64,000 nucleotides of DNA, taken from contig NC_087082.1 in the NCBI RefSeq assembly GCF_026151205.1, forward strand, positions 14,293,365 through 14,357,364, given 5' to 3'. Under the pieces are notes generated by a model, which worked only from the letters and a program-made list of their open reading frames with translations, was not told the origin of the DNA and did not search any database. This document shows positions 1,144 through 56,508 of this stretch, one piece after another (the first letter of the stretch is position 1; each line of letters begins with the position of its first letter). Position numbers and translations under genes: made by a program. This DNA comes from Bolinopsis microptera. Lineage: Eukaryota > Ctenophora > Tentaculata > Lobata > Bolinopsidae.

Positions 1144-1145
1144 AC

Positions 1146-3569
1146 CGTCATTCAGTGAGACATACACCCCACGTCTAGTAACCCTGACCACTCCACATCT
1201 CCACCACATCACCCTTCTTTAGTGGTAGCAGGGTGTGTCTCCATGGTTTACTTGGCAGTTCAATGTACTCACCGCCACTGTCTGTGAGTTGTAACAATGT
1301 TACATTATCACTGTTACATTTGCAATGATTCTACACTGTTACATTTACACTGTTACATTTACAATGATTGACACTGTTACATTATGTTTACAAACTTCTA
1401 ACAATATTCTAGTGAGGTAGCTCAGTAGAGAAATGTGTCCTTATCACACAGGAAATCCTTTAATTTATCTACTAAAATGAACCTATAGCATCATCAAGAC
1501 CAGGGTACAACTCACTTGTTTTCAGGGTTAATGAGGAGGACTCTGGCGGCTAACTGGCGTTTAGCAGGGTACACCTACAGTTACATTTACTGTTGTAATG
1601 TCCTTCGGATGTATTAGGTGTACGGAGCCCTGTTAGGGAATATTCAGGGTCATATCGGGGATTATTTAGTTGTGAAGAAAGGAAACATCGCGATAAAATA
1701 ACACATAGTAAGTTTTTTAAGTAAACAAGGTAAATATATTTAATAGCCAGAAGAAGATATATCTCCATGGAACTAGTAGAAATAGAAATAAAGCTCCTCT
1801 AGCATAGGGGAACTGACCGGATTATCGGATGAATCCGGTTCAAGCCGGATATTCGCTTTAATCTCGGTTCCGGCTTCCGGTTTCGGTCGGTTTCCAAAAA
1901 ATTTGGCCGGATATTCAAACAGGACATTTCTTTTTTTAAGTGTTCCTAAAATGTCAAAACATTTCTGCAAAATTCTTACTACGGGGCATCCAGTCATTGC
2001 TCCAGTGACGGTTAATTTCCACGCCTCCACGGTCGCCTGTTATCTGTCAGCGAATGTTCAAGGACCCGTATGATGTGAGATTTTGAGTGGTTAGAGTCAA
2101 ACAGCTACCATTTATGCTTTACTTATGAGCATGTTCAAGCAGAGCCCAGAAGGGTCCCCTGCTTTATTGTGGTAAACAAACCGTTTGCTAAAATCCCCAT
2201 ACTGTCAAGGATTTAAAACAAAGGCCATCAATGACATTAAAACTTTGGACATTATCCTCGGTTATATTGAGCCACGAACTTTAAGAGCTGCTGGCTGCTG
2301 GATCTTGGGCTTCTCGTACTACTGAAGCAATTTGTACATTTGTGCTAGGCAAGGCGCAGTGAATTCTTGCAATGTTTTGATTTTATTCCAACTCGTTTCT
2401 AGCTCTGCCATACAGCCAGATCAATCAGTGACCCTCTGCATGCTGCAAACATATCAACAAGTGAATGCTGCTCCAGCGCAGAAGTTTGGTTGAAATTTGA
2501 AAATAGGCTGTGAACACAGTTAGTCGGACTGTAAGCACTTTCTCATTGTGTCCACATGGCTTTTATATTATAATTGATAAAACCACAATCAAGATTAATC
2601 TCAATTTTCCCGGCAGCCTTAAATATCTTCTTCGTATTTACCCGGTTTCGGCCCGGTAAAAATCGGACAAACCGGAATATCCGGTCTTTCTGGTCGGCAG
2701 CCAAAACTTAGACCGAGTCGGTTCCTCTACCCCCCCCTTCCCCCCAGAAACGGGCCAGGGAATGCAACGTCAAATTAATGTCAATTAATGTCATTAATGG
2801 CAATTAATGTTCATTTAATGTCAATTAAATGTACGTTTTGCAAAATTTTGGATACTGACATTAATTGACAAGATATTTTTCGACAGAGTTATGTAGTTCT
2901 ACCATATTTTAGCACTCTTAGAAGTTTATATCATCAATTTTATTCACTACTATCACATATGGAAAATTGTGAAATGTGAAAAAATTCAGATATTAAACAA
3001 TAAACTAAAATACTGATGAGTAGGTTTCCGTAATTTAATTTTTCTTTAAATGGGCTTGGGCCATTCCAAGGCGTGGTTCTCAAAAATCATCAGACTTAAA
3101 ACTCATACATTAAACGAAATGCCTTCATGACATTTATTTTTGAATAACGGAATTTTTAAACAGCTAACATTAATCCTTCATACTAAAAAAAGCTGAATTC
3201 TAGATATTTTTACCTGGTATAAGAAACCATTAAAATATGGGCGTGGCGGTGGGACGAAGTTGGAGAGTTAGTTTGGAAGCTGAAATTTTATGGTGGTCTT
3301 GGAACCAAGGATCAACAGATAAGACATACTCAAAAATTATTTACGGGACATTTTTGTTTTTTTTGACCGACTCTAAACTTAATAGACGTGAATATCTTGA
3401 ATATTTATCGAATAATGTCAATAATGTCAATTAATGTCAATTAAAGTCAATTTATTGTCAATTAATGTCAATTATGTCAATTTAATGTCAATGCGGTTTG
3501 GGTTTTTATGGAATACTGACATTAATTGACGTTGCAGCACCCCCAGCAAACAGTACCTAAGTGGAGAGT

Positions 3570-3604
<35 letters not shown>

Positions 3605-6108
3605 ATACAGGATACCCCCAAGAAGGTACCTCTCAGTCGTTAGCAGCCTGTTTCTTAACGGTATATTAACAAGGTGACCTTGCGTCAGAGACGAGAACGT
3701 GGTTACTGTTTTCTCGAAAACCCCCCGTGCTTTCATCCATACCGCGTACAGTTCCTGTGTTAATTTGGACTGTGTTTAATTAGACAAGTTATTAAGAGAT
3801 GAGTAATAATTTATCTCCTGCATAAAATAAAATAATTTTAATTATAAATGTATGACCCTGACTACCTGCCAGAGTACCCAATTATACAGAGTGCCAGAAG
3901 TAACTGCCCATACGCGACCCTTTAATAACTCACGTAATTCTTCTTAGAATTGCACAGAATTCAGAGATTATAGATTGAGTCAACTTTTTATTGTATTAAT
4001 CAATCTCAAACTCTGGGAGAGGAAATAAAAACAATTTAATAATCCCCGGGGCTGCACAATTTATAACACACCTCACCTAAAATAGGTTGCCATCGTTAAC
4101 CGTATTGACACACCGGACAATATCACACTTCTTCAGGAGCACTGTACTCTTGTTGAGGAAGGCAGTTACTCCTTGACTCCAACGTTCACCATGTACCCGT
4201 AATCTTTCAACACTCTGGGGATGACTCCTTGTCGCACTGTTTTTAATGTTACAACTTCAGACTATAGATAATACTAAAACTGTATTTTTGTTTAAAATAG
4301 TGGCACAATCATTTAAGTATTTTAAGATGAAAACCTACCGGAAATAAGGTTCCGGCTATAAGCAACATTTGAAACATCTTCATACTAAAAAAGATATTAT
4401 TATGATGAAGGTAAGGTGGTCACTAGTCCTTTAATCGAATGAAATCACCTACCATATTTTGTTGATTCCTGTTGCTTGACGAAACGTTCACTATCTCCGG
4501 TTTGGTGGATGAGGTTGAGTTGCGTGTTTGTCAACAGTAACTACATCAAACAACCGATGAGGATAAGAACTGTCCCACTGTTACAACGTCACAGAGGTCT
4601 AGTACCTGAAATTAGTGGACCTTACAGGAGCTTAAAGAATAGAGATCTATGTTATAGGTGGCTTACATTATAAATGGATGTCAAAAAGATGGCTGTTAGG
4701 AATTTGGTATGATTAATTTAGTATCCGAATCTCTGAGTTGAGTATAGACAGTGTGGTGACACTCTCACGCCCACCGTTCTGTAAGTACATTTCTTATTAT
4801 TCAATCTACAACAGAGGTAAACTAACCTCTTCACCTTCTGCTTCCTCGTCACCCTCAGCTTTGTTCTCGTAACACTGTTAAATTCCTCGTGATATCAGTT
4901 ACCTAGCATATTTGATAATAATTAGATATGCCTCAAAACAAGGAATTCAATATTGATATAAATATTCTACATTAGTTTCTTCATTTCAATTTCATTCGGT
5001 ATGCATTTAACATTGCACTTAATTTGTTAATGCTATCAAAAATTTTTTATCTTCGATAGATCTAATTCAAAGCTTATTTGGTGCCACACATACAATTTAA
5101 CATAGAATTGCACTATTCACATTCCTCTGATTTAAAGCAGATCAATCCATTGGGCCAGGTTCACTACCCACAATCAACCTCCCAAACTTCAGACACAACA
5201 CGCGCATCAGCATACCAAGGGGGACGTTTCTAAAACAGAATATCCACATTAATATGTTGTTAGAGAGTGATGTTTTGATTGTGCTATGAGACGATACAAA
5301 GGTCAGGTCCAGCAAGTGTATTATCAACTTCATAAAACACCAGAATGTGTGTGTGTCTGTGTGTGTGTCTGTGTGTGTGTCTGTGTGTAATTCCGAACGG
5401 TTTATTCAAAAAAAACGGTAATAGTTACGGGACTGGTTTTTTCGGTATAGTGCGACAAAACTCTGACGACGCCATAAGCAAATTTTATAAAAAATTCGGC
5501 CGGTGGTAAGTGGTTTAATTGATGTTTTGTACCACAAAATATGATAACATAAAATGGCTGAGAAAACGGCAAGAGTTACGGGCTAGGCTCCTCTCTCTGA
5601 CCATATGTAGCGTATTTATTACATGGCGTATATCATTACATGGTCTTATAATACTATAAAACTTAGTAGGGGCGGGAGTGCTCAAAAACGGGTCTGTTTG
5701 GACTGTAGAGAGAGTTCATACTTTATACGACAATGTAATGCATGATTCACCAATATGATAGGCTGGTGTGGTCATGGTGTTAAGGGTTATTTTCTATTGA
5801 TTATTCATTAAGAATTCACTATCTTTCTAAGCATACTATGGATAAGTGAGGCACTCGAATAGAATTGCTCGCCTAATCCGGGTTATGGACTCAGCGGGTA
5901 ATTACTCCTACCCTTATTACTGCAGGCAGTGTGAAATCCGGCCGTTTAGGCGGGTTACACTAGTAATATTATATAATTAACAATAAATGTGTCTTATCGT
6001 ATTACTGGTTAGTAAGATCTTCCAATGGTTTTCCCAGATCAGAAATAGAATCATCTTTAGGGACTTTTTGCTATGGATTTTTCCGAGAATATATGTCTAC
6101 TTTTCTTT
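1146..6108 (-). CDS. RRP5/PDCD11-like exon block, unit 1 (partial, frame broken as read)
   Basis: Minus-strand exons, in gene order: about 6010-6108, 5125-5229, 4827-4902, 4449-4598, 4077-4236, 3608-3754, 1515-1629 and 1146-1281. All have AG/GT borders in the consensus of the six units. The consensus peptide matches the N-terminal part of RRP5, a nucleolar protein of S1 RNA-binding repeats needed for 18S and 5.8S pre-rRNA processing. It reads a Lys-rich linker, then GMLMLGVV and VNLPNGLTGFI (S1 repeat 1), TDIS plus an acidic run, WGQFLSCSVVDV, EEYGYMVNVG..GVTAFL (the EDHGY-like hallmark of S1 repeat 2), SLTPGHLVNITV, ARVLLINPENK, and KKGDVVEDVEVV. Phases agree from exon to exon except at exon 5 to 6, which is one base out in the consensus. 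The first exon with the start codon and all later S1 and TPR exons are missing from the unit. As read, indels break the frames. Whether these are live exons or duplicated fragments cannot be told here. Confidence 0.8.
1805..2729. mobile_element. hAT-like element, unit 1
   Basis: The left end reads TAGGGGAACTGACCGG and the right end CCGAGTCGGTTCCT, noisy copies of the inverted repeat TAGGAACCGACCGG / CCGGTCGGTTCCTA. The left 8-bp target duplication CTCTAGCA is at 1797-1804. The right copy is scrambled in this unit by a C-rich read error. There is no transposase frame, so it is a non-autonomous or decayed element inside the RRP5-like intron. Confidence 0.75.
2752..3544. mobile_element. GTCAATTAAT-repeat transposon, unit 1
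   Basis: Non-autonomous inverted-repeat element. Its outer ends are GGGGGGAATGCAACGTC and the complement. Each end holds several tandem copies of GTCAATTAAT, then GTCAATGTCAGTTT, then GGAATACTGACATTAATTGAC, so each end can fold on itself. No protein is encoded. See the clean copy at 52883-53673. Confidence 0.8.
3571..3604. repeat. 34-base C homopolymer, unit 1 only
   Basis: A pure C run replaces the short TACCTACC seen at this place in other units, at the donor side of RRP5-like exon 6. It is probably a consensus artefact. Confidence 0.9.
5346..5389. repeat. GT microsatellite with CT interruptions, unit 1
   Basis: Blocks of GTGTGTGT separated by CT, in the intron between RRP5-like exons 1 and 2. 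Equivalent tracts lie at about 12456, 19598, 26788, 34003 and 41153. Confidence 0.9.
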
Positions 6109-6900
6109 CTGAAATACAATTTTTAAGGGAATTCTGTATTTAATAAATCCACACTCAGAAACACGGCGGTTTCAGGTAAATTTGGCTGCGGACAAATTGG
6201 TTCTACTCATGTGTAATAGATAGAAAAACTACACCGATGCGAATGGCAACACAGCCAGATATCGACGGAGCCAAAATTACAAAGAGTCTATCTGAGGCCT
6301 ATCAGGAGTTGATTTCGGTTGTTTACTATCGTGCCTTAAACTAATTACAAATCTGTCTAGCTTTCACGTGACATATTGGTAATCAGAATACCCAACACTC
6401 ACAGTCGCTACGTTGGCCCAGGTTTAGAAGTGGTGCTAAAAGGTGTGATAAAGTTGCGGGAAGTACGGCAACGAAACACAAAACTTTTATCCGCAGAACG
6501 GAAATATGACTATCTTCGAGGTATTTTACAAATGCTACACGCATCCAACAATTTCACTTGCCATTTTCTGATAAGATATCTGTGACATTCTTTCAGGACT
6601 CTGTATTTCTGTTACTAAATTAATTGTTACGAGATATAAGAACTTTTCATTCCCTAATAGTGTTATTATATTTATGTATGTGTTGTATATCTTTAATTGA
6701 TTGTAATTAACATTTTAAGGCGTTAATGCAAGAGTACTGCCTCGGGTAGTGCAATCATCACTACTAAAACTTTCGATTCAATATCATTTATACGATATAC
6801 ATCATATTCATTTTTGGTCATTATCCATTTCATATTGACCATTGAGAGGATGTGTCGGTCTCGAGGTTCATACACAGCAGTATTAATACAGTGATAGAAA
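6109..6900. other. AT-rich spacer between first RRP5-like exon and minisatellite (unit 1)
   Basis: Unique to the unit and conserved between units (about 13220-14007, 20363-21159, 27557-28350, 34756-35551 and 41931-42730). I see no exon of RRP5 here; a start-codon exon was looked for and not found. Short open stretches on the plus strand do not hold up between units. Confidence 0.5.
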
Positions 6901-8311
6901 GATGACTAGACTGAAGTACAGATACTGAATGAACTACAGGACTACTGACTAAACTACAGACTACTGACTGAATACAGACTACTGACTGAACTACAGACTA
7001 CTGACTGAAGTACAGAATACTGATTGAAGTACAGACTACTGACTGAACTACAGGCTACTGCCTGAAGTACAGACTACTGACTGAAGTACTGACTACTGAC
7101 TGACTACAGACTAATGATAACTACAGACTACTGACTGAAGTACAGACTATGACTGAAGTACAGACTACAGACTGAAGTACCGACTACTGATGATACTACA
7201 GGACTATGACTGAACTACCAGACTACTGGACTGAACTACAGACTACTGACTGAACTACAGACTACTGACTGAAACATGCTACTGACTAAACTACAGACTA
7301 CTGGACGGAAGTACAGGGACTACTGACTGACTACAGACTACTGACTGAAGTACAGGACTACTGATGAAGTACAGGCTCTGACAGAAAGTACAGACACTGA
7401 CTGAAAGTACAGGACTACTGACTGAGTACAGACTACTGACTGAACTACAGACTACTGACCTGAAACTACAGACTACTGACTCTGAACTACAGACTACTGA
7501 CTGAATACAGACTACTGACTGAAACACATGCTCACTGACTTAAACTACAGGACTACTGACTGATGTACAGCTACTGACTGAACTACAGAACTACTGACTG
7601 AAGTACAGGACTACTGACTGAAGTACAGACTCATACTGAAGTACAGACTACTGACTGAACTACTGACTACTGACTTGAAGTACAGGCTACTGACTGAGTA
7701 CAGACTACCTGACTGAAGACAGGACTACTGTGAAAGTACAGACTACTGACGTACTACAGACTATGACTAAACTACAGACTACTGACTGAACTACAGAGAC
7801 TGACTGAACTACAGACTACTGACGAAGTACAGACTATGACTGAAAGTCAGACTACTGGACTGAACTACAGACTACTGACTGAACTACAGACTACTGACTG
7901 ACGTACAGACTACTGGGACTGGGTACAGCTATGACTGAACTACAGACTCTGACTGATCCAGACTTCTGACTGAATAGTAAGACTACTGAATGAAGTACAG
8001 ATACTGACTGGGACATGACTACTGACTGAAACTACAGACTACTGACTGAACTACAGACTACTGACTGAAGTACAGACGACTGACTGAAGTACAGGACTAC
8101 TGACTGGAACTACCGGACTACTGATGTGAACTACAGATACTGAATGAGTACAGACTTCTGAATGAAGTACCGACTACTGACTGAAACTACAGACTACTGA
8201 CTGAACTACAGACTACTGACTGAACTACAGACTACTGACTGAACTACAGACTACTGACTGAACTACATGCTACTGACTAAACTACAGATACTGACTGAAG
8301 TACAGACTACT
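6901..8311. repeat. 19-bp minisatellite block, unit 2
   Basis: Same 19-bp repeat as in unit 1, about 1.4 kb. Variant repeats reading CATGCTACTGACTAAAC mark fixed places in the block, near 7272, 7527 and 8267. Confidence 0.95.
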
Positions 8312-8315
8312 GAAC

Positions 8316-11300
8316 CGTCATAGTGAGACAAACCCACGTTTAGTACCCTGAACCACCTCAATCCTCCACCAACACACCACTGCTTAGTTGGGCAGGGTGT
8401 CTCCATGGGTTACATGCAGTTCATTGTACTCAACAGGGCCACTGTCAGAGAGTTGTAACACTGTTACATTAACACTGTACATTTGCAATGATTTACACTG
8501 TTAACATTTCCACTGTTTCCATTTACATTGCATTTACACGGATTACATTGTGTTTAAAACTTCAACCTAATAATTTAAGTGAGTAGCTTACAGTGGGAGA
8601 ATTGTGTACCTTATCACACAGTAAATCCTTAATTTATTACTAAAATTGAAACCTATAGCATATCAAGACAGGGTACAATCACCTTGTTTTCAGGGTTAAA
8701 TGAGGACGGGGACTCTGGCGGCCCTAACTTGCGTTTTAGCAGGGTACACCTCCAGTACTCTCCTTATGTTGTACATGTCCTTCAGATGTCTTAGGTGTAG
8801 GGAGCCTGTTAGGGATATTCAGGGTCCAAACGGGGATATTATTTAGTGTGAATAAAAGAAACATCGCGGATAAAATAACACATAGTAGTTTTTAGTAACA
8901 AGTAAATATATTTATAGCCAGAAGAAGAATATCTCCATGGTCATAGTTGAAATAAAGCTCCTCTAGATAGGAAACTGACCGGTTTCCGGCTGAATCCGGT
9001 TCCAGCGGATATTCGGCTTTAATCTCGGTTCGGTTCCGGTTTCGCTAGGTTTCGGTTTCAAAAATTTGGCCGGATATTCAACAGGACCTTTCTTTTTTAA
9101 GTGTTCCTAAAATGTATTATATTTCTGTCAAATTCTTACTAAGGGGGCATCAGTCATGCTCTCAGTGACCGGAAAATTCCCGCTCCCATCGGTCGCCTGT
9201 AATATCTGTCGGCGAATGTTCAAGCCCGTTGATGTGAGGATTTTTGAGTGGGTAGAGTCAAAACAGCTACCATTTCTGCTTTACTTATGAGCATTTCAAG
9301 CAGTGCCCTGAGGGTCCTTGCTATATTGTGGTAAACACACCCGTTGCTAACTCCCCTTACATGTCAAGGATTAAAACAAAGGCCATCATGATTAAAAATT
9401 TGGACATTATCCTCACGTTATATTGACACACGACCTTATAAGAGCTGCATGGCTGCTGGATCTTGGGCATTACTACTGAAGCAATTTGTAACTTTTGTGT
9501 GCTAGGCAAGGCGCAGTGAATTCTTGCAAGGTTTTGATTTTTATTCCAACTCGTTTCTAGCTCTGCTCATACAGCAGATCAACAGTGACCTCTGCACTTG
9601 CTCCAAACATATCAACAAGTGACTGTGCTCACAGCGCAGAAGTTTGGTTTGAAATTTGAAAATAGGGCGTGAACACAGTTAGTCGACTGTAAGCACTTTT
9701 CTCATTGTGTCCCATGGCTTTTAAATATTATAATTGATAAACCCACAATCAAGGATTATCTTCAATTTTCCGGAGCCTTAAATACTCTTCTTCTTATTAC
9801 CCCGGTTCCGGCCCGGAAAATGCGACACAAACGAATATCGGTCTTTTCAGGTCGGCAGCCCAAACCTTAGACCGGTCGGTTCTACTCTAGCAAAACGGGG
9901 GGAAAGCAACGTCAATTAATGTCAATTAATGTCATTGAATGTCAATTAATGTCAATTTAATGTCAATTAATGTCAGTTTGCAAAATTCTTGGAATACCTG
10001 ACATTAATTGACATGATATTTTTTCGACCAGAGCATTAGTAGTTCTACCATATTTTTAGCACTTTTTAGGAACGTTTATATCATTCAATTTATTAATACT
10101 TATCAATATGGAAATGTGAAAATGTGATAAAATTCAGATCATTAAAACAATAAAACTAACATAATACGGTTTCCGAAATTTTATTTTCTTAAATGGGCTT
10201 GGCCATCAGGGCGTGGTTCTCAACTTCATCAGAACTTAAAACCCACATTAAACGAAATGCCTTCACTGACATTTATTTTTGATAACGACTTTTAACAGCT
10301 AACATTACTCCTTCATACTAAAAAAGCCGATTCTAGATTGTTTACCTGCTTATAAGAAAACCAATACAATATGGGCGTGGCCGGTGGGGACCGAAGATGG
10401 AAGGAGTTGGAAGGATGAAATTTTTTTTGGTGTCTGTGACCTAAGGATCAACAGATTAAGAACATACTCATAATAATTTAAGGACATTTGTTTTTTTGAA
10501 CCGATTAACTTTATCATAGCGTGATATCTGAATATTATCGAATAATGTCCAATTAATGTCAATTACTGTCAATTAAGTCAATTAATGACAATTAATGTCA
10601 ATTAATGTCAATTTAATGTTCAATGTCAGTTTGGGGGTTTTTAGGAATACTGACCATTAATTGACGTTGCATAACCCCCAGCAAACAGTCCCTAAGTGGA
10701 AGAGTACCTACCAGATACCCCCAAGGGAAGGTACCTCTCAGTCGTTAGCAGCCTGTTTCTTAACGGTGATATTACAATTGTGACCTGGCGGCAGAGAAGA
10801 GACGTGGTTACTTGTTTTCTCGAAAGTGCTTTTATCCCTACCGCGTAACAGTCCTGTGTTAATTAGACTGTGTTAATTAGGACAGTTAACAAGCGATGAT
10901 TAACTAATTTATCTCCCTGCTAAAATTAAAATTTTCTAATTATAAAGGTAGACCCTGATACACTGCCAGAGCTACCCCAATTATACAGAGTGGCCCAGAA
11001 GTACTGCCCATACGCGACCCTTTATTAACTCAGTAATTCTTCTTAGAATTGCACAGAAATTTCAGAGATTATAGATATGAGTCAAACTTATTATTGTATT
11101 ATTCAATCTCAACTCTGGAGAGAGAAATAAAAACCAATTTAATAATCCCCCAGGGGCTGCCACCAATTTATAACAACCTCACCTAAAATAAGGTTGCATC
11201 GTTTAAACCGTATTGACCACACCCGGACAATATCACATTTTTCAGGCAGCACTGCACTCTTGTTGAGGAACGGTGTTACTCATTGGACTCCCACGTTTCA

Positions 11301-13219: not shown

Positions 13220-14007
13220 CTGAAAATACAATTTTTAAAGAATTCTGTATTTAATCAATATCCACACTCAGAAAACCACGGCCAGTTCAGGTACATTTTG
13301 CGCGCGGACATATTGTTCTACTCCATGTGTAAATTTGAAGAAAATACACCGATGGTGAATGAAATCAACAGCCAGATATCGACGAGCAAAATTAAAAGAA
13401 GTCTTATCTGAGGCATATCAGGAGTTGATTTCGGGTGTTTAATATTCGTGCTTAAACTAATTCAACTGTTTAGATGTTCACGTGACATATTTGGTAATCA
13501 GAATACCCACATCCACAGTCGCTACGTTGCCCAGGTTTAGGTAAGAGTGTGATAAAGGTGTGATTAAAGTTGCGGGAAGTACAGCAACGAAAACACAAAA
13601 CTTTTATCGCAGAACGACATATGACTATCTTCGACGTATGTTACAATGCTACACGCTCCAACAATTTTCAACTGCCATTTTCCTGTACGATATCTGTGAC
13701 ATTCTTTCAGGACTCTGTATTACTGTTCTAATTAATGTAGAGATAAGAACTATTTTCATTCCTAATAGTCGTTATTATATTTTGTATGTGTGTAATCTTT
13801 AAATTGATGGTAATTAAACATTTAAGGCGTTAATGCAGAGTACTGCTCGCAGGTTAGTGCAATCATCAATAACTAAAAACGTTCGTATTCACTATCAATT
13901 TATACGGTTATAATACACTATTCATTTTATGTTCATTATCATTCATAATTTACCATAGCAGGAGGTCTCGAGGGTTCATACACGGCAGTATATACAAGTG
14001 ATATCAA

Positions 14008-22612: not shown

Positions 22613-22614
22613 AC

Positions 22615-27556: not shown

Positions 27557-28350
27557 TGAAAATACAATTTTTTAAAGAATTCTGTATTTAATCAATATCC
27601 ACATCAGAACACGGCCAGTTTCAGGTAAATTTTTGGTGCCCGGACAAATGGTTCTATCTTGTGTAAATTGATGAAAAATCACCGTGCTGATGAAAATCAA
27701 CAGCCAGATATCGACGAGCAAAAAATTACAAAAGAGTCTATTGAGGCATACTCAGGAGTTGATTTCGGTGTTTAATATCGTGCTTTAAACTATTTTACAC
27801 TGTTTAGATGTTCACGTGGAATATTTGGTAACTCAGAATACCCACACTCCACAGTCGCTCGTTGCCCATGTTAGAAGTGTGATAAAAGGTGTGATAAAGT
27901 TGCGGGAAGTACAGCAAACGAAAAACACAAAACTTTTTATCGCAGAAACGAAATATGACTATCTACGAGGTATTTTACAATGCTACACGCCATCCAAACA
28001 AATTTCACTGCCATTTCTCTGATAAGATATCGTGAATTCTTTCGACTTTGTATTACTGTTCTAAATTAATGTAAGAGATAAAGAACTATTTTCATTCCCT
28101 AATAGTGTTATTATATTTATCGTATGTGTGTATATCTTTAAATTGAGTGTAAGTAACATTTTTAAGCGTTATATGCAAGAGTACCTGCCTCCGGGGATAG
28201 TGCCAATCCATCAATTAACTAAAACTTCGTATTCACTATCATTTATCACCGATATAATCATATTCTTTTGTTCATTTTCATTCATATTGACCATAGCATG
28301 AGGCTCTCGAGGTTCATACACGGCAGTATAGTATTAATACAAGTGATATA

Positions 28351-29781: not shown

Positions 29782-29783
29782 AC

Positions 29784-32700
29784 CGTCATCAAGTGAGGAC
29801 ATACACCCACGTTTAGAACCTGACCGCTCCACCTCCTCCACCACATTCACCCTTCTTTAGTTGGTAGCAGGGAGTCTCCATGGTTACATGGGCAGTTCAA
29901 GGTACTCAACAGCACTGTGGAGAGGTTGTAACACTGTTACATTAACACTGTTACATTTGCAAGATTTACCACGTTACTTTACTCACTGTTACATTTACAA
30001 TGATTTACACTGGTTACATTATGTTTTCTACTTCTAACCAAATATTCTAGTGGTAGCTACAGTAGAGAATTGTGTACCTTATCACACAGTAAATCTTATT
30101 TATCTACTAAAATGATCCTATAGCATCATCAAGACAGGGTACAAATCACCCCTTGTTTTCAGGTGTTAATGAGGAGGACTATGGCGGTCCTAACTTGCGT
30201 TTAGCAGGGTACACCTCAGTACACTCTTACTGTTGAACATCGTCTTCAGATGTATTCGGTGTACGGGCCTGTTAGGGGTTATTCAGGTCAAACGGGGATT
30301 ATTTAGTTGTGATCAAAAGAAATCCTCCGCGATAAAATTAACACATAGTAAGTTTTAAGTCAACAAGTAAAATTTTAATAGCCAGAAGAAGAAATACTCC
30401 ATGGACCATAGTAGAAATAAAGCTCTTCTAGCATAGGAAACTGAACCTGGATATCCGGCTGAATCCGGTTCAGCCGGATATTCGGCTCTTTAATCTCCGG
30501 TTTCGGTTTCGGTTTCGGTCGGTTTCCAATAATTTTTCTGGCCGGATATTAACAGGCATTCTTTTTTAAGTGTTCTAAAATGTATAATATTTCTGTCAAA
30601 ATTCTTATAAGGGGCATCCGTCCTAATTGCTCTCAGTGACCTGGTATTAAATTCAACGCCTCCACGGTCGCCTGTATCATGTCAGCGAATGTTCAAGACC
30701 GTTGATGTGAGATTTTTGAGTGGCGTTAGAGTCCAAAACAGCTACCATTTATGCTTTACTTATGAGCATTTCAAGCAGAGCAGAGGGTCCCAGCCTTTAT
30801 TGTGGTAAACAAAACCGTTGCTAACTCCCCTTACATCGTCAAGGATTAACAAAAGGCCATCATGCCATTAAAACTGCTTGGCATTATCCTCGGTTATATT
30901 GACGCCACGAACTTATAAGAGCTTGCACTGGCTGCTGGATCTTGGGCTTGACTTTACTGAAGCAATTGGTACATTTGTGCTAGCAAGGCGTCCGTGAATT
31001 TTGCAATGTTTTGATTTTATTCCAACTCGTTTCTAGCTCTGCTCATTACAGCAGAATCACAGTGACCTCTGCACTGCTCGCACAAATCTCAATACAAAGT
31101 GACTGCTGCTCACAGCGCAGAAGTTTGGTTGAAATTTGAAATAGGGCAGTGAACACAGTTAGTCGGACCTGTAAGCACTTTTCTCATTGGTCACATGGCT
31201 TGTAATATTATAATTGATTAAAACCACAATCAAGGATTCTCTCAATTTTCGGCAGCCTTAAATATCTTCATTCTTATTACCCGGTTCCGGCCCGGAAAAA
31301 TGCGACAAACCGGGAATATCCGGTCTTTTTCTGTCCGGCAGCCAGACAACCTCTAGACGGTCGGTTCCTAATCTAGCAAAACGGGGGGAATGCAACGTCA
31401 ATACTGTCAATTAAGTCAATTACATGTAATCTCAATTAATGTCATATTAATGTCAATTAATGTCAGTTTTTGCAAAATTTTGGAATATGACATTAATTGA
31501 CAATGATATTTTTCGACCAGAGATTATGTAGTTCCTACCATATTTTTAGCACTTTAGAAACGTGTATATCATCAATTTATTCACTACTATCACATATGAA
31601 ATGTGAATGTGAAAAATTCAGGATCATTAAAAACAATAAAACTAAATAATACGGTTTCCCCCGGGGGGGAAAAACAAAACAAAAAAAAAAAAAAATTTTT
31701 TTAATTTTCTTAATTGGGCTTGGCCATCCAAGGCGTGGTTCTCAACATCATCAGAACTTAAAACCCAACATTAACGAAATGCCTTCATGACATTTTATTT
31801 TTGAATAACGGATTTCTTACAGCTAACATTACTCCTTCATACTAAAAAGAGCCGATTCTAGATATTTTACCTGTATAAGAAACCAATAAAATATGGGCGT
31901 GGCCGGTGGGGACCGAGATGGGAAGGAGTTGGAAGCTGAAATTTTTTGGTGGTCTTTGAACCTAAGGATCAACAGATAAGAAACATACTTCATAATTATT
32001 AGGACATTTTGTTTTTTTGAACCGATTCACTTACATAGACGTGAAATATTCTTGAATATTTATCGAATTAATGTCAATTATATGTCAATTCATGTCAATT
32101 AATGTCAATTAATGTCACTTAATGTAATTATGTCAATTAATGTCAATGTCAGTTGGGGTTTTATGGGAACACTGACATTAATTGACGTTTCATCACCCCA
32201 GCAAAACAGTCCCTAAGTGGAAGAGTACCCTACCAGATACCCCAAGGAAGGTACATATCAGTACGTTAGCAGCCTGGTTCTTAACGGTGATATTAACAAG
32301 GTTGACCTGGCGGTCAGAGAGAGGGAAACGTGGTTACTGTTTTTCTCGAAAGTGCTTTCATCCCCCATACGGCGTTACAGTCCGGTGTTTAATTAGACTG
32401 TGTTAATTAGACAGTTAATAAGAGATGATTAATAATTTCTCCCTGCTAAAATTAAAATATTTAATCTATCAATGATATGACCCTGACTACACTCGCCACG
32501 AGCTACCCAATTACTACAGGAGTGGCCCAGAAGTAACTGCCCATAAGCGACCCTTTAATAACTACGTAATTCTTCTTAGTATTGCACAGAAATTTCAGAG
32601 GAGTTGATAGATATGAGTCAAACTTATTTTTGTTTTTATTCGCAATCGCAAACTCTGCGAGAGAGAAATAAAAACAATTTAATAATCCCCCGGGGCTGCA

Positions 32701-34755
32701 CAATTCTATAACACACCTCACCTAATAAGGTTCCATCGTTAACCGTATTGACCACCCGGACAATATCACACTTCATCAGGAGCACGCACTTTGGTTGAGG
32801 AAGGCTGTTACTCCTTGACTCCCCCGTTACCATGTACTCCCGTCTCTTCACACTCTGGATGACTCTTGTAGCCCTGTTTTTAATGTTACAATTATCTATC
32901 AGATAATCTAAAACCCCTGTATTTTTGTTTAAACATAGTGGGCACTATCATTTAAAGTACTTTTTAAGATGAAAACCTACCGGAAATAAGGTTCCCGGCA
33001 TAATTAAGCAACATTGAAACATTTCATACTAAAAAAGATATTCTTATGAGAAGGTAAGGTGGTCACTGTCCTTTATAATCGAATGAAATCACCAACCTAT
33101 CTTGTTTGATATCCCTGTTGCGTGATCAGAAAAAACGTTCACTATCTCCGGTTTGGTGGTGAGGTTGAGTTTGCGTGTTTGTTGAAAGTAACTACATCAA
33201 CACCGAGCAGGATAGAAACTGTCCCACTGATACAAACGTCACAAGAGGCTCTAGTTCCTGAAATTAAGTGGGAACTTACAGGAGCTTAAGAATAGAGATA
33301 CTATGTTATAGGTGGCTTACATTATAAATTTGATGTTCAAAAGAGGTGTTTAGGAAATTGTTATGATCTTTAGTATCGAATCTACTGAGTTTGAGTATAG
33401 AACAGTGTGGTGAAACTCGCACGCCCACCGTTCTGGTAATTACATCTCTCTTCAAATCTACAACAGAGGAAACAAACCTCTTCACCTTCTTGCTTCTCGT
33501 CACCTTCAGCGTTGTTCTCGATAAACACTGTTTAAATTACCTCGCTGATATCGTACCTAGCCTATTATGATAATAATTTGATAGGACTCAACACAAGATG
33601 AATTCAATATTGATATAAATTACTTCTACATCTATTTTCTTCATTTTCATTTTTCATTCTGTATGCACTTTGACATTGCACTTTAATTGGTTATCATAAT
33701 ATTTTATCTTTGCTAGATCTAATTCAAAGCTTATTTGGGCCCACATACAATTTAAATAGAATGCATATTCCATTACCTCTGATAAAGCCAGTCAATCATT
33801 GGGGCAGGTTCATACCCCATCAACCTCCCCAAACTTCGAAAAACACACGAGCATCTGGCATACCAGGGGACAGTTTCTAAAACCGAATATCCACATTAAT
33901 ATGTTGTTACCGAGAGTGATATTTGGATTTGTGCCAATGAGGACGATAACAAAGGTCAGGTCTTAAGCAAGTGTATTATCAAACTTAATAACACCAGAAT
34001 GTAGTGTGTGGTCTGTTGTGTGTGTCTGTGTGTGTGTTCTGTGTGTAATTTCCGAACGGTTATACAAAAAAAACGGTAATAGTTACGGACTGGTTTTTTC
34101 GGTATAGTGCCGACAAACTCTGACGAAGCAATAAGCAATTTATAAAAATCGGGCGGTGTAAGTGGTTGAAATTGATGGTTTTGTACCACAAAATATGTTA
34201 CATAAATGGCTTGAGAGGACGGCAAGAGTTACGGGGCTAGCTCTCTTCTGCATATGTAGCGTTATATTACATGGCGTATTTATTACATGGTCATATAATA
34301 GACTATAAACTTATTAGGGGAGGGAGTGCTCAAACGGTCTGTTTGGATGTAGAGAGAGTTCATACTTTCATACGCAATGTATGCATGTTCACCAAGTATG
34401 AATAGGTGGGTGGTGCATGGTGTGTTAAGGGTTAATTTCTATTGATTATTCCTTAAGAATTACTATCTTTTCAAGCATACTATTGGATACGTGTGGGCAT
34501 CCGAATGAATTGCTCGCCTAATCCGGGTTTTGGGACTCAGCGGGTAATTACTCTACCCTTTTAACTGCGGCGTGAAATTCCCCGGCGTAGGCGGGTTAAC
34601 TAGTAATATTATATAATTAACAATAAATGGTTGTTTTATCGTTTACTTTGTATGTAAGAACTTCCACTGAAGGTTTTCCCAGATCAGAATAGAATTCATC
34701 TTTAGACTTTTTGGCTATGGATTATTTTTCCGAGAATATTGCTCTACTTTTTCTT
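29784..34755 (-). CDS. RRP5/PDCD11-like exon block, unit 5 (partial, frame broken as read)
   Basis: Fifth copy: about 34647-34755, 33777-33876, 33478-33556, 33093-33250, 32722-32873, 32234-32383, 30149-30268 and 29784-29918. Exon 2 is exactly 100 bp. The GT microsatellite is at 34003-34047. Confidence 0.8.
30434..31370. mobile_element. hAT-like element, unit 5
   Basis: Same element, 937 bp as read. TCTAGCA flanks both sides. Confidence 0.8.
31383..32199. mobile_element. GTCAATTAAT-repeat transposon, unit 5
   Basis: Same family, 817 bp as read. Perfect 8-bp duplications AGCAAAAC lie at 31375-31382 and 32200-32207. Confidence 0.9.
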
Positions 34756-35551
34756 CTGAAATACCAATTTTTAAAGGAATTCTGTATTTAATCAATATTC
34801 CACATCAGAAACACGGCCAGTTTCAGCGTAAATTTTGGCCGCGGACACGAATTGGTTCTACTATGTGTAATATTTGAAGAAAAATACACGATGCTGAATG
34901 AAAATCAACCGCCAGATATCGACGAGCAAAAATTACAAAGAGTCTATCTGAGGCATACTCAGGATGTTGATTTCGCGTGTTTACTATCGTGCGTAAACTA
35001 ATTACAAATGTTTGTGTTCACGTTACATAATTTGGTAATCAGAATACCACACTCCCACAGTCGCTACGTTGCCCAGTTTAGGATGTGTGATAAAAAGGTG
35101 TGATTAACGTTGCGGGAAAGTACAGCAACGAAACACAAACTTTTATCGCAGAGAACGAAATATGACTATCTTCGAGGGTATTTTTCAATGCTACACGCCA
35201 TCAACAATTTCACTTGCCATTTTCCTGATAAGATATCTGTGACATTCTTTCAGACTCTGTATTACTGTTCTAAATAATGTAGAGATAAGAACTATTTTCT
35301 TTTATTCCCTAACTAGTGTTCATTATATTTATGTAGTGTGGTTATCTTAAATTGTTTGTAATTAAACATCTTTTAAGGCGTTAATGCAGAGTACTGCCTC
35401 GGGGTAGTGCAAATCATCAATAACTAACAACTTTCGTTATTCACTATCATTTATACGCTATAATCATATTCATTTTTGTTCATTTCATTCATATTGACCA
35501 TAGCATGAGGTTCTCGAGGTCATACCGGCAGTGTTAATACAAGTGATATAA

Positions 35552-36988
35552 AGACTGGACTAGCCTGAAGTACAGACTACTGACTGAACTACAGATACTG
35601 ACTAAACTACAGACTCCTGAAGAACTAAGACTACTGACTGAACTACAGACTACTGACTGAAGTACAGATACTTAGGACTGAAGTACAGACTACTGGACGA
35701 ACTACTGATCCTGATAAGTACGACTACTGACTGACGTACAGGACTACTGGACTGAATCCAGACTATGACTGACACTACAGACTACTGACTGAAGTACAGA
35801 CTACTGAACTGAAGTCACAGGACTACTGACTGAAGTACAGACTACCTGTCTGAACTACAGACTACTGCTGAACTACCAGACTACTGGACTGAACTACAGA
35901 CTACTGACTGAACTACAGACTACTGACTGAAACTACATGCTACTGACTAAACTACAGACTACTGACTGATGAAGTACAGACTATGACTGAAACTACAGAC
36001 TACTGACTGAAGTACAGACTACTGACTGAAGTAGACTATGACTGAAGTACAGACTACTGACTGAAGGACAGACTACTGGACTGAAGTACAGACTACTGAT
36101 GAACTACAGACTACTGACTGAACTACAGACTACTGACTGAACTACAGTCTACTGAATGAACTCAGACTACTGACTGGAACTACATGCTACTGACTAAACT
36201 ACAGACTACTGACTGAAGTAACAGATACTGATCTGAAACTACAGAAACTGACTGAAGTAAGACCTATGACTGAAGTAAAGACTATGGACTGAAGTACAGA
36301 CTACTGACCTGAACTAACAAGACTACTGACTGAAGGACAGACTACTGATGAAGTACAGACCTACTTGACTGAAGTACAGACTACTGACTGAAGTACAGAC
36401 TACTGACTGAATACCAGACTACTGACTAAACTACCGGACTACTGGACTGAACTACAGCTACTGACTGAACTACAGATACTGGACTGAAGTACAGGACTAC
36501 TGACTGAAGTGCAGATACTGACTGAATACAGACTACTGACTGAAATACAGACTACTGACTGAAGTACAGACTCTGACTGGCGTACAGAACAACTGACTGA
36601 ACTACAGACTACTGACTGAACTACAGACTACTGACTGAAGTACAGATACTGACTGAAGTACAGGACTACTGGACTGAAGTACCGACTACTGAACTGAACT
36701 ACAGGCTACTGACTGACCTACAGATACTGACTGAAGTTACCAGAACTTACTGACTGAAGTATGACTACAGGACTGAACTACAGACTACTGACTGAAAAAC
36801 CTACAGACTACTGACTGAGTACAGACTTTACTGACTGAAGTACAGACTACTGACTGAACTCAGACTAATGACTGAACTTACAGACTACTGACTGAACTAC
36901 AGACTACTGAACTGAACTACAGACTAGGACTGAACTACATGCTACTGTACTAAACTACAGACTTACTGACTGAAGTAACAGATACTGA
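35552..36988. repeat. 19-bp minisatellite block, unit 6
   Basis: Same 19-bp repeat, about 1.44 kb. Marker variants lie near 35936, 36183 and 36937, with the same spacing as in the other units. Confidence 0.95.
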
Positions 36989-36989
36989 C

Positions 36990-39900
36990 CGTCATCAAGT
37001 GAGACATACACCCCACGCTTTCAGTAACCCTGACCACCTCCCATCCTCCACCACATCACCTTCTTTAGTTGGGTAGCAGGGTTGTCTCCATGGTTACAAT
37101 GGCAGTTCAAAGTACTCAGCAGCACTGTCTGAGAGTTGTAACACTGTTACATTAACACTGTTACATTTGCAATGATTTACCACTGTTACATTTACACTGT
37201 TACATTTACCATGATTTACCACTGTATTACATTATGTTAACAAACTTCTAACCAATATTCTTAGTGCGTAGCTACAGTAGAGAATTGTGTACCTTATCAC
37301 ACAGGTAAATCCTTAATTTATCCTACTAAAATGAACCTATAGCATCATCAAGACAGGGTTACAATCACCTTGTTTTCCGGGTATAATGAGGACGGGACTC
37401 TGCGGCTAACCTTGCGTTTAGCTGGGTTCACCTCCAGTACACTTCTTACTGTTGTAACATGTCCTTCAGATGTATTAGGTGTACGGAGCCCTCGTTAGGA
37501 ATTCAGGGTTCAATCAGGGGACTATTAGTGTGATATACAAGAAACATCGCGATAAAATAAACACATAGTAAGTATTTAAGTAAACAAGTATATATATTTA
37601 ATAGCCAGTAAGAAGAAATTCTCCATGGCACCATAGTAGAATAAAGCTCCTCTGATTAGGAATGCCGGATACCGGCTGACATCCGGTTCCAGCCGGATAT
37701 TCGGCTTTAATCTCCGGTTCGGTTCCGGGTTCGGCCGGTTTCCAAAAATTTGGCCGGATATTCAACAGGGACATTTTCTTTTTTTAAGTGTTCTTAAAAT
37801 GTATTAATATTTCTGTCAAAATTCTTTTAAGGGGCATCCATCTTGCTCTCAGTGACCGGTAAAATTCCACGCCTCCACGGTCGCCTGTTATCTGTCAGCG
37901 AGTGTTCAAGCCCCGTTGATTGTGAGATTTTTGAGGGGGTTGAGTCAAAACAGCTACCTTTTATGCTTTATTTTGAGCATTTCAAGCAGTGCCAGAGGGT
38001 CCCTGCTTATTGTGGTAAACAAAACCCGTGACAAAATCCCCTTTACATGTCAAGGGATAAAAACAAAGGCATCATGCCATTAAAAAAAACTTTGGACTTA
38101 TCCTCGGTTATATTGACGCCACGAAACTTATAAGAGCTGCACTGGCTGCTGGATCTTTGGGCTTACTACTGAAGCAATTTGTACATTTGTGCCTAGGCAA
38201 GCGCAGTGAATTTTGCAATGTTTTGATTTTATTCCAACTCGTTTCTAGCTCTGGCACATACGCGATCAATCAGTGACTCTGCACTGCTCGCACAACATAT
38301 CACAAGTGACTGCTTTTTTTTTTTTACTGCTCACAGCGCAGAAAAGAAGTTGGTTTGAAATTTGAAATAGGCGTGAACACAGTTAGCGGAACTGTAAGCA
38401 CTTTCTCATTGTGTCCACATGCGCTTTTAATATTTATTGAATAAAACCACACAATCAAGGATTAATCTCATTTCCGGCAGCCTTAAATATTTCTTCTTAT
38501 TACCCGGTTCCGCCGGAAAAAGCGACCAACCGCGGAATTTCCGGTCTTTTTCTGTCCGGAGCCAAAAACCTTAGACCGGTCGGTTCCTACTCTAGCACTA
38601 ACCGGGGGAATGAACGTCAATTAATGTCAATTATGTTCAATTAATGTCAATTAATGTCAATTAATGTCAATTAATGTCAGTTTTGGCCAAAACTTTCTGG
38701 AATTAGGACAATAATTTGAAATGATATTTTCGACAGAGCGAGATTATGTAGTTCTACCCTATTTTAGCACTTCTAGAACGTTTCTATCATCATTTATTCA
38801 CTACTATCACATATGGAAATGTGAATTGTGAAAAAATTCAGAATCATTAAACATAAAACTAAAATAATACCGTTTCCCGAACTTTAATTTTCTTAAATGG
38901 GCTTGGCCATCAAGGGCGTGGTTCTCAATTCACAGATTAAAACCCACATTAAACGAAATGCTTCATGACATTTATTTTTGAATAAACGAATTTACAACAG
39001 CTAACATTATCCTTCATACTAAAAAAGCCGATTCTAGATATTTTTACCGATAAGAAAACCATAAAAATATGGGCGTGGCCGTGGGGACCGAAGATGGAAG
39101 AGTTGGAAGCTGAAATTTTTTTGGTTGGTCTTTGAACCTAAGGTATCAACAGATAAGAACATATCATAATTATTTAGGACATTTTGTTTTTTTGAACCGA
39201 TCTAACTTAATAGGACGTGAATATCTTGATATTTATCGAATAATGTCAATTCAATGTCAACTAATTGTCAATTAATGTCAATTAAAGTCATATTAATGTC
39301 ATAATGTCAATTATGATCCAATGTCAGTTTTGGGGTTTTTATGGATACTGACATAAATTGACGTTGCATCCCCCCCTGCAAAACCATTCCCTAAGTGGAA
39401 GAGTACCTACCAGGTTACCCCCAAGGAAGTACATCTCAGTGTCCTGTTAGCAGCCTCTGTTTCTTACGGTGATATTAACAAGGTGACCTGGCGTCAGAGA
39501 AGAGAACGTGGTTACTGTTTCTCGAAGTGCTTTCATCCCTACCGCGTACAGTCTGTGTTAATTAGAACCTGTGTTAATTAGACAGTTAATATAAGAGATG
39601 ATTAATAATGTATCTACCTGCTAAAATTAAATAATATTTTAATTATAAATGTATGACCCTGACTACACTGCCAGAGTACCCAATTATACAGAGGGCCAGA
39701 AGTAACTGCCCATACGGACCCTTTAATAACTCACGTAATTCTTCTTAGAATTGCACAGAACTTTCAGAGATTATAGATATGAGTCAAACTTTTATTGTAT
39801 TATTCAATCTCAAACTCATGGAGGAGAGAAATAAAAACAATTTAATAATCCACCGGGGCTGCACAATTTATTAACACCTACCTAAAATAAGGTTTGCCAT

Positions 39901-41930
39901 CGTTAACCGTATTTGACCACCACCCGGACAATATCACACTTCTTCGGAGCACTCGCAATCTTGTTGAGGAAGGCTGTTACTCCCTTGACTCCTCGTTCAC
40001 CATGTACCGTACCTTCAACATCTCGGATGACTCCTTGTGACCTGTTTTTATTGGTACAACTTCAACTATCAGATTATCCTAAAACTGTATTTTTGTTAAA
40101 ATAGTTGGCACAATCATTAAAGTATTTTTAAGATTGAAAACCTACCGGAAATAAGGTTCCGGCTAATAAAGCAACATTGAAACATTTCATACTAAAAAAG
40201 AACTATTCTTATGAAGAAGGTTATGGTGGCTCACTAGTCCTTTAATCGAAATGAATATCTACCATATTCTTGTGATATCCTGTTGCTTGACAGAAAACGT
40301 TCACTATCTTCCGGTTTGTGGTGAGGTTGAGTTTGCGTGTCTTGTCAACAGTAACTACATCAACAACCGCGCAGGATAAGAACTGTCACTGATACACACG
40401 TCTCGAGGTCTAGTTCTGAATTAAGTGGAACTTACAGGATGGGTTAAAGAATAGAGATACTTATGTTATAGGTGGCTAACATTATAAATGTTGTTCAAAA
40501 GAGGTGTTTAGGAAATTGTTTATGATTAATTTCGTATCGAATCTCTGAGTTTGAGTATAGAACAGTGTGGTGAACTCTCACGCCCACCGTTCTGTAAGTA
40601 CATTTCTCTTCTTCAACTTTAAACAGAGGAAACTAAACTCTTCACCTTCTGCTTCCTCGTCACCTTCAGCGTCTGTTCTCGATAACACTGTTAATCCTCG
40701 CTGATATCAGTACCTAGCATATTATGATATAATTAGATATGGCTCAATACAAGAAGTCAATATTGATTAAAAATTACTTCTAACATCTAGTTTCTTCATT
40801 TCATTTTTCATTCGGTATGCATTTAAACATTGCACTTAATTTGTTATCAAAATATTTATCTTGAGCAGATCTAATTCAAGCTATATTTGGTGCCACACAT
40901 ACAATTAACATAGAAATCATATTCTACTTACCTCTGATAAGCCAGTCAATCCATTGGGCAGGTTTCATACACATCAACACTCACCACTTTCAGAAAACAA
41001 CACCGCAGCATCAGCATACCAGGGGACAGTTTCTAAAACAGATATCCACATTAAACATGTAGTTAGAGAGTGGATATTTGGATTTGTGCCAGATGAGGGG
41101 ACGATACAAAGGTCAGTCATAGCAAGTGTATTATCAACTTAATAACACGGAATGTGTGTGTGTTTCTGTGTGTGTGTCTGTGTGTGTGTCTGTGTGTAAT
41201 TCGACGTTATACAAAAAACAACGGTTATAGTTACGGGATGGTTTTTTCGGTATAGTGCCGACAAAACTTGGACGAAGCCCAATAAGCAAATTTTATAATA
41301 ATCGGGCCGCGTGGTAAGGTGGTTTAATTGATGGTTTTGTACCACAAAATATGTTACATAAAATGGCTTGAGAAGAAACGGCAAGAGTTACGGGGCTAGC
41401 TCTCTCTCTGATATGTATCGTATTTATTACATGCGTATATATTACATGGCTCATATAATACTATAAACTCTTTATTAGGGGAGGGAGTGCTCAAAACGGT
41501 CTGTTTGGGACTGTTAGAGAGAGTTCATACTTTATACGCCCAATGTAATGCATGTTCACAATATGCAATAGGCTGGTGTGGTGCATGGTGTTAAGGGTTA
41601 ATTTTATTGATTAATCATTAAGAATACTATCTTTTAAGCATACTATTGGATACCGTGAGGGCACTTCGAATAGTAAATTGCTCGCCTAATCCGGGTTTTG
41701 ACTCAGCGGGTAATTACTCCTACCCTTTTTAACCGGCCGGCAGTGAAATCCCGGCCGTAGGGGCGGCGGGGTTACACTAGTAATATTATATAATTAACAA
41801 TAAATGTGTTTATCGTCTTACTCTCGGTATGTAAGATCTTCCAATGGTTTTCCCAGATCAGAAATAGAATCATCTTTAGACTTTTTGGGGCTATGGATTT
41901 TTCGAGAATATATGCTTCTACTTTTTCTTT
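36990..41930 (-). CDS. RRP5/PDCD11-like exon block, unit 6 (partial, frame broken as read)
   Basis: Sixth copy and first on the transcribed strand: about 41822-41930, 40932-41032, 40638-40713, 40259-40409, 39882-40041, 39411-39552, 37369-37490 and 36990-37128. In exon 5 this copy has the CCC (gene-strand GGG) needed to read GVKGVTAFL in frame, where units 1 and 5 have lost a base. It is the copy nearest the Tudor gene, and its first exon starts in phase 0. Confidence 0.8.
37657..38589. mobile_element. hAT-like element, unit 6
   Basis: Same element, about 0.93 kb. The right duplication CTCTAGCA is clear at 38590-38597. A private T run at about 38313-38323 interrupts it. Confidence 0.8.
38604..39376. 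mobile_element. GTCAATTAAT-repeat transposon, unit 6
   Basis: Same family. The flanks AGCACTAAC and TGCAAAAC are noisy versions of AGCAAAAC. Confidence 0.85.

Positions 41931-43870: not shown

Positions 43871-56508
<12,638 letters not shown>

Follow-up and report, generated by a model that had tools for sequence, protein, structure and literature searches.

The window, 64,000 nucleotides of Bolinopsis microptera contig NC_087082.1 (positions 14,293,365 to 14,357,364; hereafter C11), is occupied over much of its length by a tandem array of six complete inter-satellite units and seven blocks of a 19-bp satellite, the array itself beginning to the left of the window at C11:14292376. The repeat unit of about 7.2 kb carries, on the minus strand, eight 5' exons of RRP5 (e0-e7), whose coordinates were obtained by an alignment guided by a clean copy of the gene (Table 1). 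A sequence-only reading had placed eight minus-strand segments in every unit, and all eight were mapped in six of the six, with e0 of the sixth unit ending at 41930, exactly where that reading had closed its feature. The sequence beside the array is clean, and a 490-aa RT frame is open there at 53659-55131.

Table 1. Layout of the array in the window; unit and exon limits come from the alignment guided by the clean gene.
Feature	Position	Strand	Exons	Remark
Whole array	1-43803			raw-read letters, ~9% noise vs clean gene
19-bp satellite	1-1132			e7-e8 intron of gene; cut by window edge
Unit U1, between satellites	1133-6908	-	e0 6005-6108, e1 5125-5229, e2 4827-4902, e3 4453-4605, e4 4077-4237, e5 3608-3754, e6 1515-1629, e7 1135-1216	
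19-bp satellite	6909-8313			~74 copies
Unit U2	8314-14018	-	e0 13113-13220, e1 12236-12335, e2 11943-12019, e3 11569-11724, e4 11183-11347, e5 10712-10853, e6 8683-8806, e7 8316-8382	
19-bp satellite	14019-15414			~74 copies
Unit U3	15415-21170	-	e0 20256-20362, e1 19374-19472, e2 19079-19155, e3 18697-18857, e4 18302-18469, e5 17834-17980, e6 15783-15905, e7 15414-15485	
19-bp satellite	21171-22614			~74 copies
Unit U4	22615-28369	-	e0 27452-27556, e1 26566-26661, e2 26264-26338, e3 25889-26047, e4 25516-25674, e5 25042-25179, e6 23006-23123, e7 22615-22689	
19-bp satellite	28370-29776			~74 copies
Unit U5	29777-35564	-	e0 34647-34756, e1 33777-33876, e2 33478-33556, e3 33097-33257, e4 32722-32873, e5 32234-32382, e6 30150-30269, e7 29784-29854	
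19-bp satellite	35565-36989			~74 copies
Unit U6	36990-42741	-	e0 41823-41930, e1 40932-41032, e2 40638-40713, e3 40263-40416, e4 39882-40041, e5 39411-39553, e6 37369-37490, e7 36990-37062	
19-bp satellite	42742-43803			shortened at right edge of pasted stretch

The identity of the units is best read from the clean copy, which lies in the same genome at C11:3063169-3070280, within an RRP5 gene whose S1 exons continue downstream of it. This copy is 7112 bp long, starting 326 bp before e0 and ending 7 bp before e8. Its exons e0-e6 have AG/GT borders and join into one open frame, and for e7 the donor is GT, with an open frame preserved from any of seven candidate AG acceptors. When spliced, e0-e7 encode a 311-aa peptide for which all three PDB matches at E <= 0.01 are named RRP5 (3.8e-21, 5.2e-18 and 3.5e-4), the first being Rrp5 chain 6rxy_Cz, with its best stretch at residues 118-321, a collinear N-terminal region. 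Against Pfam the same peptide matches S1_RRP5 (5.6e-12), and a peptide extended from e1 to e9 matches both S1_RRP5 (8.2e-14) and OB_RRP5_4th (2.8e-13), so that the unit exons form an S1 chain with an RRP5-type first domain. The peptides quoted in the sequence-only reading occur in the clean gene in their proposed order: GMLMLGVV and VNLPNGLTGFI in e1, TDIS in e2, EEYGYMVNVG in e4, GHLVNITV in e5 and ARVLLINPENK in e6. The eight-exon RRP5 content of the units, in order and strand, is thereby confirmed, and the description of the array as an amplified piece of RRP5/PDCD11 is supported; far from vanishing with accurate sequence, the frames appear in the clean gene.

RRP5/PDCD11, an essential gene of ribosome biogenesis, has when complete a start exon, in which an FPRG-like motif is expected, 12 S1 domains and C-terminal HAT repeats. 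The unit exons resemble it in spanning the N-terminal S1 region in order, but the unit lacks e8 and everything beyond, and is therefore a fragment and not a gene. Nor is a start exon recognised: no FPRG-type motif was found in the 26.5 kb before e0 (plus strand, three frames) or in the stretch L035.

The letters of the window by themselves convey much less. The AG/GT borders proposed for every unit hold in the clean gene for e0-e6; in the window units 35 of 48 acceptors show AG and 37 of 48 donors show GT. Just three of the 48 exon copies have a frame-keeping length and no stop, so single-unit frames are indeed broken and few exons are readable, although the cause is raw-read error and not mutation of the copies. 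The six-way comparison, from which the frames were said to be readable, did not prove the gene in the parts tested: no Pfam family was matched by the raw consensus pieces (1130 aa taken from one of the three frames and two short stretches, 36 and 41 aa long), and proof came from the clean locus.

It is clear from comparison with that locus that the unit-to-unit differences are sequencing error. All 16 units compared depart from the clean gene to a similar degree (substitutions 1.6-2.5%, deletions 3.0-3.7%, insertions 3.2-4.5%), with a ts:tv of 195:1455 (0.13), and full-length noisy units have a BLAST identity of 90.6-92.0% to the clean unit. Exons show no better conservation than the remainder of the unit (substitutions 1.99% vs 1.97%, deletions 3.9% vs 3.2%, insertions 3.9% vs 4.0%). 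The majority of the 16 units equals the clean gene except at 13 of 5232 positions, to which an intron insertion at P2389 is additional. Differences between majority and gene include single-base changes at P2037, P2107, P2122 and P2733, an in-frame 3-nt deletion in e4 and a 6-bp intron deletion at P3561; the gaps at P1 and P2258 resemble alignment or homopolymer effects. At 108 further sites a deletion is found in 4 to 8 of the 16 units, where about 9 such sites would be expected at an even rate, and 86% of these lie within same-base runs, compared with 49% of all positions; most look like run-length error, and some shared small indels may be present among them.

The noise is also reused. C4:14824568-14856725 and C11:14292376-14324533 are 100% identical over 32,158 bp, and another noisy source is common to C5, C1 and C3 (L004=L005; L006=L007=L008), whose stretches share no match above 400 bp at 97% identity or higher with the C4 and C11 stretches compared. 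Four array edges were read, at P208 and in the satellite on C11, at P3857 on C4 and in the satellite on C5, and none is a natural border. Taken at face value, the assembly holds an old, truly diverged pseudogene satellite with decayed exons, whose units differ by 15-25% and occur on five chromosomes. That reading deserves almost no credence and can be regarded as ruled out by the low ts:tv, the mostly private differences with their excess of indels, the equal noise of exons and introns, and the identical noise on different chromosomes.

Indel-rich noise, low ts:tv, reused letters and arbitrary edges are together the marks of gap filling with raw reads, and the B. microptera assembly was built from PacBio CLR reads with wtdbg2, TGS-GapCloser and pilon. 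Since identical noise stands on C11 and C4, a second noisy source exists and CLR gap closing was used, the place of the array in the window is most likely a gap-filling artefact; the sequence-only reading was right about the RRP5 piece, but the true location of the amplification may be another, the same noisy letters having been pasted on C4 and other noisy letters on C5, C1 and C3. We infer that gap closing pasted raw, uncorrected long-read sequence here, and that the same or other noisy reads would have been pasted likewise into C4, C5, C1 and C3. According to its description, TGS-GapCloser inserts long-read segments between scaffold pieces, as here; the description names repeat-caused misalignment as a risk and includes error correction as a step, which the present explanation requires to have been omitted or unsuccessful. 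The recurrence of the same noisy letters on more than one chromosome sets the present case apart. With considerable confidence, then, the array can be taken as pasted raw reads whose source molecules were head-to-tail copies of the 7112-bp RRP5 segment. An abundant array should have let polishing shift the gene to array alleles, and six differences remain within 697 bp, which was counted against this combined account. Tens of kilobases of raw-read noise can thus enter a chromosome-scale assembly, and do so repeatedly; annotation would list them on five chromosomes as divergent satellites or pseudogenes, and they can be recognised by ts:tv and by identical noise.

With the noise set aside, what is left is a fragment of RRP5 amplified in tandem, with very little variation between units. 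On C4 about 15 consecutive units are read, and C4:14824568-14932000 holds 14 full and two partial Pa stretches in the same direction, the kilobase-scale head-to-tail order of a macrosatellite. The end of each unit joins the start of the next with a 3-bp overlap, CTA, and the satellite keeps its length, a gap of at least 19 bp occurring once among 14 units. The junction is the same in both noisy sources, which makes a self-ligated library fragment unlikely, and missed-adapter palindromes are ruled out, the units examined all facing one way. One segment, introns and e0-e7 included, would have been copied head-to-tail, its end joined to its start, by unequal exchange, rolling-circle copying or re-replication, and because the units are near-identical down to minisatellite length this amplification was probably very recent.

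Units of the kringle IV type 2 repeat of LPA splice in frame into one protein. Here e0 starts in phase 0 and e7 ends in phase 1, so that splicing e7 to the e0 of the following unit changes the frame and meets a stop after 17 codons; repetition of the unit cannot lengthen the RRP5 protein, and in-frame enlargement by extra S1 exons is ruled out. As the copies also lack e8 onward and a recognised start exon, no function can be read from them. The LPA repeat, a human intragenic VNTR of 5.6 kb per unit and 1-40 units, is otherwise similar in its long tandem protein-gene units, the little inter-unit variation reported and its being unresolved in ordinary sequencing data; as to location, one unit here sits at the parent gene and the edges read show no natural border. 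The macrosatellites and multicopy gene tandem repeats of PMC4063668 are likewise large tandem repeats with gene sequence, but the present array repeats only part of a single essential gene, in which no start exon is recognised. Among the papers listed by term searches of open-licence PMC, none concerns an RRP5/PDCD11 array.

Three explanations differ in the origin that they give to the sequenced molecules, and all of them accept the artefact. A 7.1-kb extrachromosomal circle, or a multimer of it, sequenced in repeated passes along a single strand, would account for the common direction and practical identity of all C4 and C11 units, the kept satellite length, the 3-bp-overlap junction, a single read of about 125 kb if the C4 and C11 stretches come from the same one (the C5 stretch is 82 kb if unbroken), and the failure of polishing to pull the clean gene to array alleles. 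Seven differences from this haplotype would not be expected in a circle derived from it, however, and an adapter-free circle is hard to load on a sequencing instrument; we consider this origin improbable. The junction alone fits circle and tandem equally. Unlikely, too, is an array at another genomic site, grown from a dispersed copy and with its true flanks unassembled: it agrees with the arbitrary edges and with array alleles that differ from the gene, but among the full-length matches listed for window:2000-4000 (best 40 of 1320 candidates) the only clean one, leaving aside the window and the identical copy of it, is at C11:3.065 Mb.

The true site would most naturally be the RRP5 locus itself, where the assembler would have collapsed the array to one unit; the chances of this are about even. 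A genuine intragenic macrosatellite of this kind, with a carrier haplotype that makes truncated RRP5, has in its full form a little less than an even chance. The clean locus has just one unit, which breaks at the same points as the array units, and a second RRP5 copy (C11:3286885-3305691, minus strand) has e8 onward, lacks e1-e7 among the matches listed (query without e0), and loses homology 128 bp inside the unit border, as if assembly had stopped at an array. On the other hand, no noisy version of the 3-kb sequences flanking the gene was found attached to an array (best 40 candidates scored per flank), the matches listed belonging to the second copy of RRP5 or to dispersed elements; the clean gene retains non-array alleles at several sites; and the frameshift from e7 to e0 would make a near-null allele of an essential gene. 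Tentatively, this comb jelly may carry a very recent, near-variation-free amplification of the 5' part of RRP5, either as an array of more than 100 kb in one allele, a copy-number-variable null, or as extrachromosomal circles or multimers cut from RRP5. So young an amplification of part of an essential gene would allow a gene-derived macrosatellite or circle to be observed shortly after it arose.

The window corresponds to C11:14293365-14357364, and its first 43,803 nt (window 1-43803) form a head-to-tail array with a unit of about 7.2 kb, each unit consisting of a block of some 74 copies of a 19-bp satellite and 5.7-5.8 kb of other sequence. When the segments between satellite blocks are aligned across six units, pairwise identity is 74-78% with gaps counted, differences are mostly private to one unit, and neither a clear grouping of units nor a strongly conserved stretch along the unit was found. 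Genome searches scored best candidates only; among the best 40 of 1320 for window:2000-4000, 100% identity is reached by the window and by a single exact copy on contig C4, C11:3065606-3067550 (on the contig that holds the window) stands out at 88%, and the remaining full-length matches are at 81-84%, others being shorter pieces. This clean locus is about 91% identical to each noisy unit and 96.2-97.9% identical, in pieces, to the six-way consensus, as expected if each unit carries private errors. It comprises exactly one unit, C11:3063169-3070280 (7112 bp; P1 is its first base), and the array junction is the right end of this segment joined onto its left end, the CTA common to both ends reading as if it had been kept once. 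A 34-C run at window 3571-3604, reported by the repeat finder in the first window unit only, is perhaps a raw-read fault.

The sequence-only reading had proposed that every array unit holds eight exons of RRP5/PDCD11 whose peptides follow RRP5 order, and the clean unit bears this out. It contains eight exons (e0-e7) on the plus strand of C11, and the proposed peptides are found, in the proposed order, in e1, e2, e4, e5 and e6. This gene also guided the mapping of exons in the window units. Exons e0-e6 have AG/GT borders and a single open frame; e7 ends at a GT donor, and any of seven candidate AG acceptors leaves the reading frame open into e8 and e9. The peptide encoded by e0-e7 has matches to Rrp5 of 6rxy (3.8e-21) and of 5wlc (5.2e-18), to 1wi5, 'RRP5 protein homolog' (3.5e-4), and to Pfam S1_RRP5; extended by e8 and e9, it also matches OB_RRP5_4th. 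The unit begins 326 bp ahead of e0 and breaks off 7 bp short of e8; e8, e9 and an open exon of 325 aa lie downstream, outside it. The e7-e8 intron includes the 19-bp minisatellite (C11:3068401-3069808, P5233-6640), which measures 1408 bp in the gene and a similar 1429 bp on average across 15 C4 units of the array.

Sixteen units (14 from C4 and two from C11, none double-counted) differ from the clean 5232-bp part by 1.6-2.5% substitutions, 3.0-3.7% deletions and 3.2-4.5% insertions, with transitions to transversions at 195:1455 and with exons (937 bases) and the remainder (4295) equally noisy. We know of no evolutionary process that yields such a profile; long-read error yields it. The majority of the 16 units equals the gene except at 13 of 5232 positions, representing six events and two alignment or homopolymer effects; the P2733 change affects the third base of a codon and leaves Thr unchanged, and a seventh event is an insertion (Table). 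In the Pb part (13 units) no majority base change was found, and an insertion near P6798 may be common to units. Three stretches of a second noisy source agree with the array majority in their alleles wherever readable, P2107 being ambiguous in two of the three and the 3-nt deletion in one. Substitutions common to at least four of the 16 units occur at three sites, one of which adjoins P2037 and is probably its shadow. Deletions in 4-8 units occur at 108 sites, against about nine expected at an even rate, which speaks against full homogeneity; most are probably run-length error, because same-base runs hold 86% of them compared with 49% of all positions. Within the satellite, 14 units display no shared copy gain or loss, and one has a 35-bp gap. 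The array units are thus nearly identical copies.

The same noisy letters recur at several places. Including the noise, C4:14824568-14856725 matches C11:14292376-14324533 at 100% identity over 32,158 bp. Among the array stretches of the second source, L004 (C5) is the reverse complement of L005 (C1), L006, L007 and L008 (C5, C3, C1) share their letters, and none of the five matches the compared C4/C11 stretches at 97% or above over 400 bp. Exon matches extend to C4:14937663 and C5:11639349, with rows of equal score recurring across C1, C3 and C5. The C4 array is unbroken over about 107 kb (15 units); a single read behind C4 and C11, if there was one, would from the shared letters comprise about 125 kb of pure array, and the C5 stretch, read in parts, would span 82 kb. 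Of four array edges, one lies at P208, one at P3857 and two within the satellite, none at a unit border; the sequence next to the array is clean and contains an open frame of 490 aa. These observations point to the placement of the array in the window as an artefact.

The genome totals 264.65 Mb, of which C1-C13 (15.2-26.2 Mb each) make up 258.07 Mb (97.5%); C14, C15 and C16 have 198, 168 and 124 kb. The assembly is described as 13 chromosome-scale scaffolds with 97.23% of bases, built from one adult whose libraries included PacBio CLR (PacBio coverage >70x), with wtdbg2, TGS-GapCloser, Purge Haplotigs and pilon as tools (PMC10232365). TGS-GapCloser is described as inserting long-read segments and including a correction step; its authors warn that repeats can lead to misplaced reads and also refer to uncorrected runs (PMC7476103). 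We infer that several gaps were filled with long array reads, and that these fills would have escaped correction, since accurate short reads align to the clean gene.

A second, inverted RRP5 copy lies at C11:3286885-3305691, some 210-240 kb from the first, with its large exon open and 98% identical in protein. It differs from the first by about 2% substitutions over G33852-G34714 (G1 = C11:3037001), is noisy with many deletions from G33152 to about G33850 (some 700 bp adjoining the unit border), and its upstream homology ends 128 bp inside that border. No clean e1-e7 was found outside C11:3.064-3.068 Mb among the matches listed (best 113 of 154 candidates; e0 absent from the query). The second copy is probably the other allele or haplotype, misplaced, and its contig can be read as having broken where it met the array or a collapsed region.

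On the best reading, one recent duplication of a 7.1-kb stretch, with a 3-bp overlap, was followed by fast amplification. Six of the seven array-versus-gene events cluster in 697 bp, for which uniform placement gives a chance of about 0.0013. This clustering suggests either that the clean locus mixes array-type with other-allele sequence as a mosaic or that it is an edge unit. In the array e7 (ending in phase 1) faces e0 (starting in phase 0), their spliced join leads to a stop after 17 codons, and the units are without e8 and, as far as discernible, without a start exon; nothing beyond truncated or frameshifted RNA would be expected. Should RRP5 itself contain the array, the allele concerned is probably impaired, with the animal relying on the other one; array molecules in the form of circles would be by-products.

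Coordinates of window features, of majority-versus-gene differences and of the second RRP5 copy
Feature	Location	Strand or orientation	Remark
Tudor-domain frame	window 44418-44870	-	Pfam 3.3e-10
Large palindrome of 177-bp tandem repeats	window 48949-51740		arms ~95% alike
Reverse transcriptase frame, 490 aa	window 53659-55131, with 52245-52925	+	Pfam RVT_1 4.6e-17
0.8-kb dispersed element	window 52869-53673; P2862-3623 in array units		
Single-base changes	P2037, P2107, P2122, P2733		majority vs gene
3-nt in-frame deletion	e4		majority vs gene
6-bp deletion	P3561		majority vs gene
2-4 nt insertion	P2389		majority vs gene, seventh event; 13/16 units
Second RRP5 copy, pieces	C11:3302646-3307023 (L035); C11:3286885-3287796	inverted	

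Beyond the array, a 6-bp repeat in the Tudor-domain frame encodes a long run of PV dipeptides. The dispersed element, which carries TAATGTCAAT repeats and is present at many places in the genome as well as inside array units, has, in the window, one half of a reverse transcriptase-type gene on either side and apparently splits the frame of that gene.
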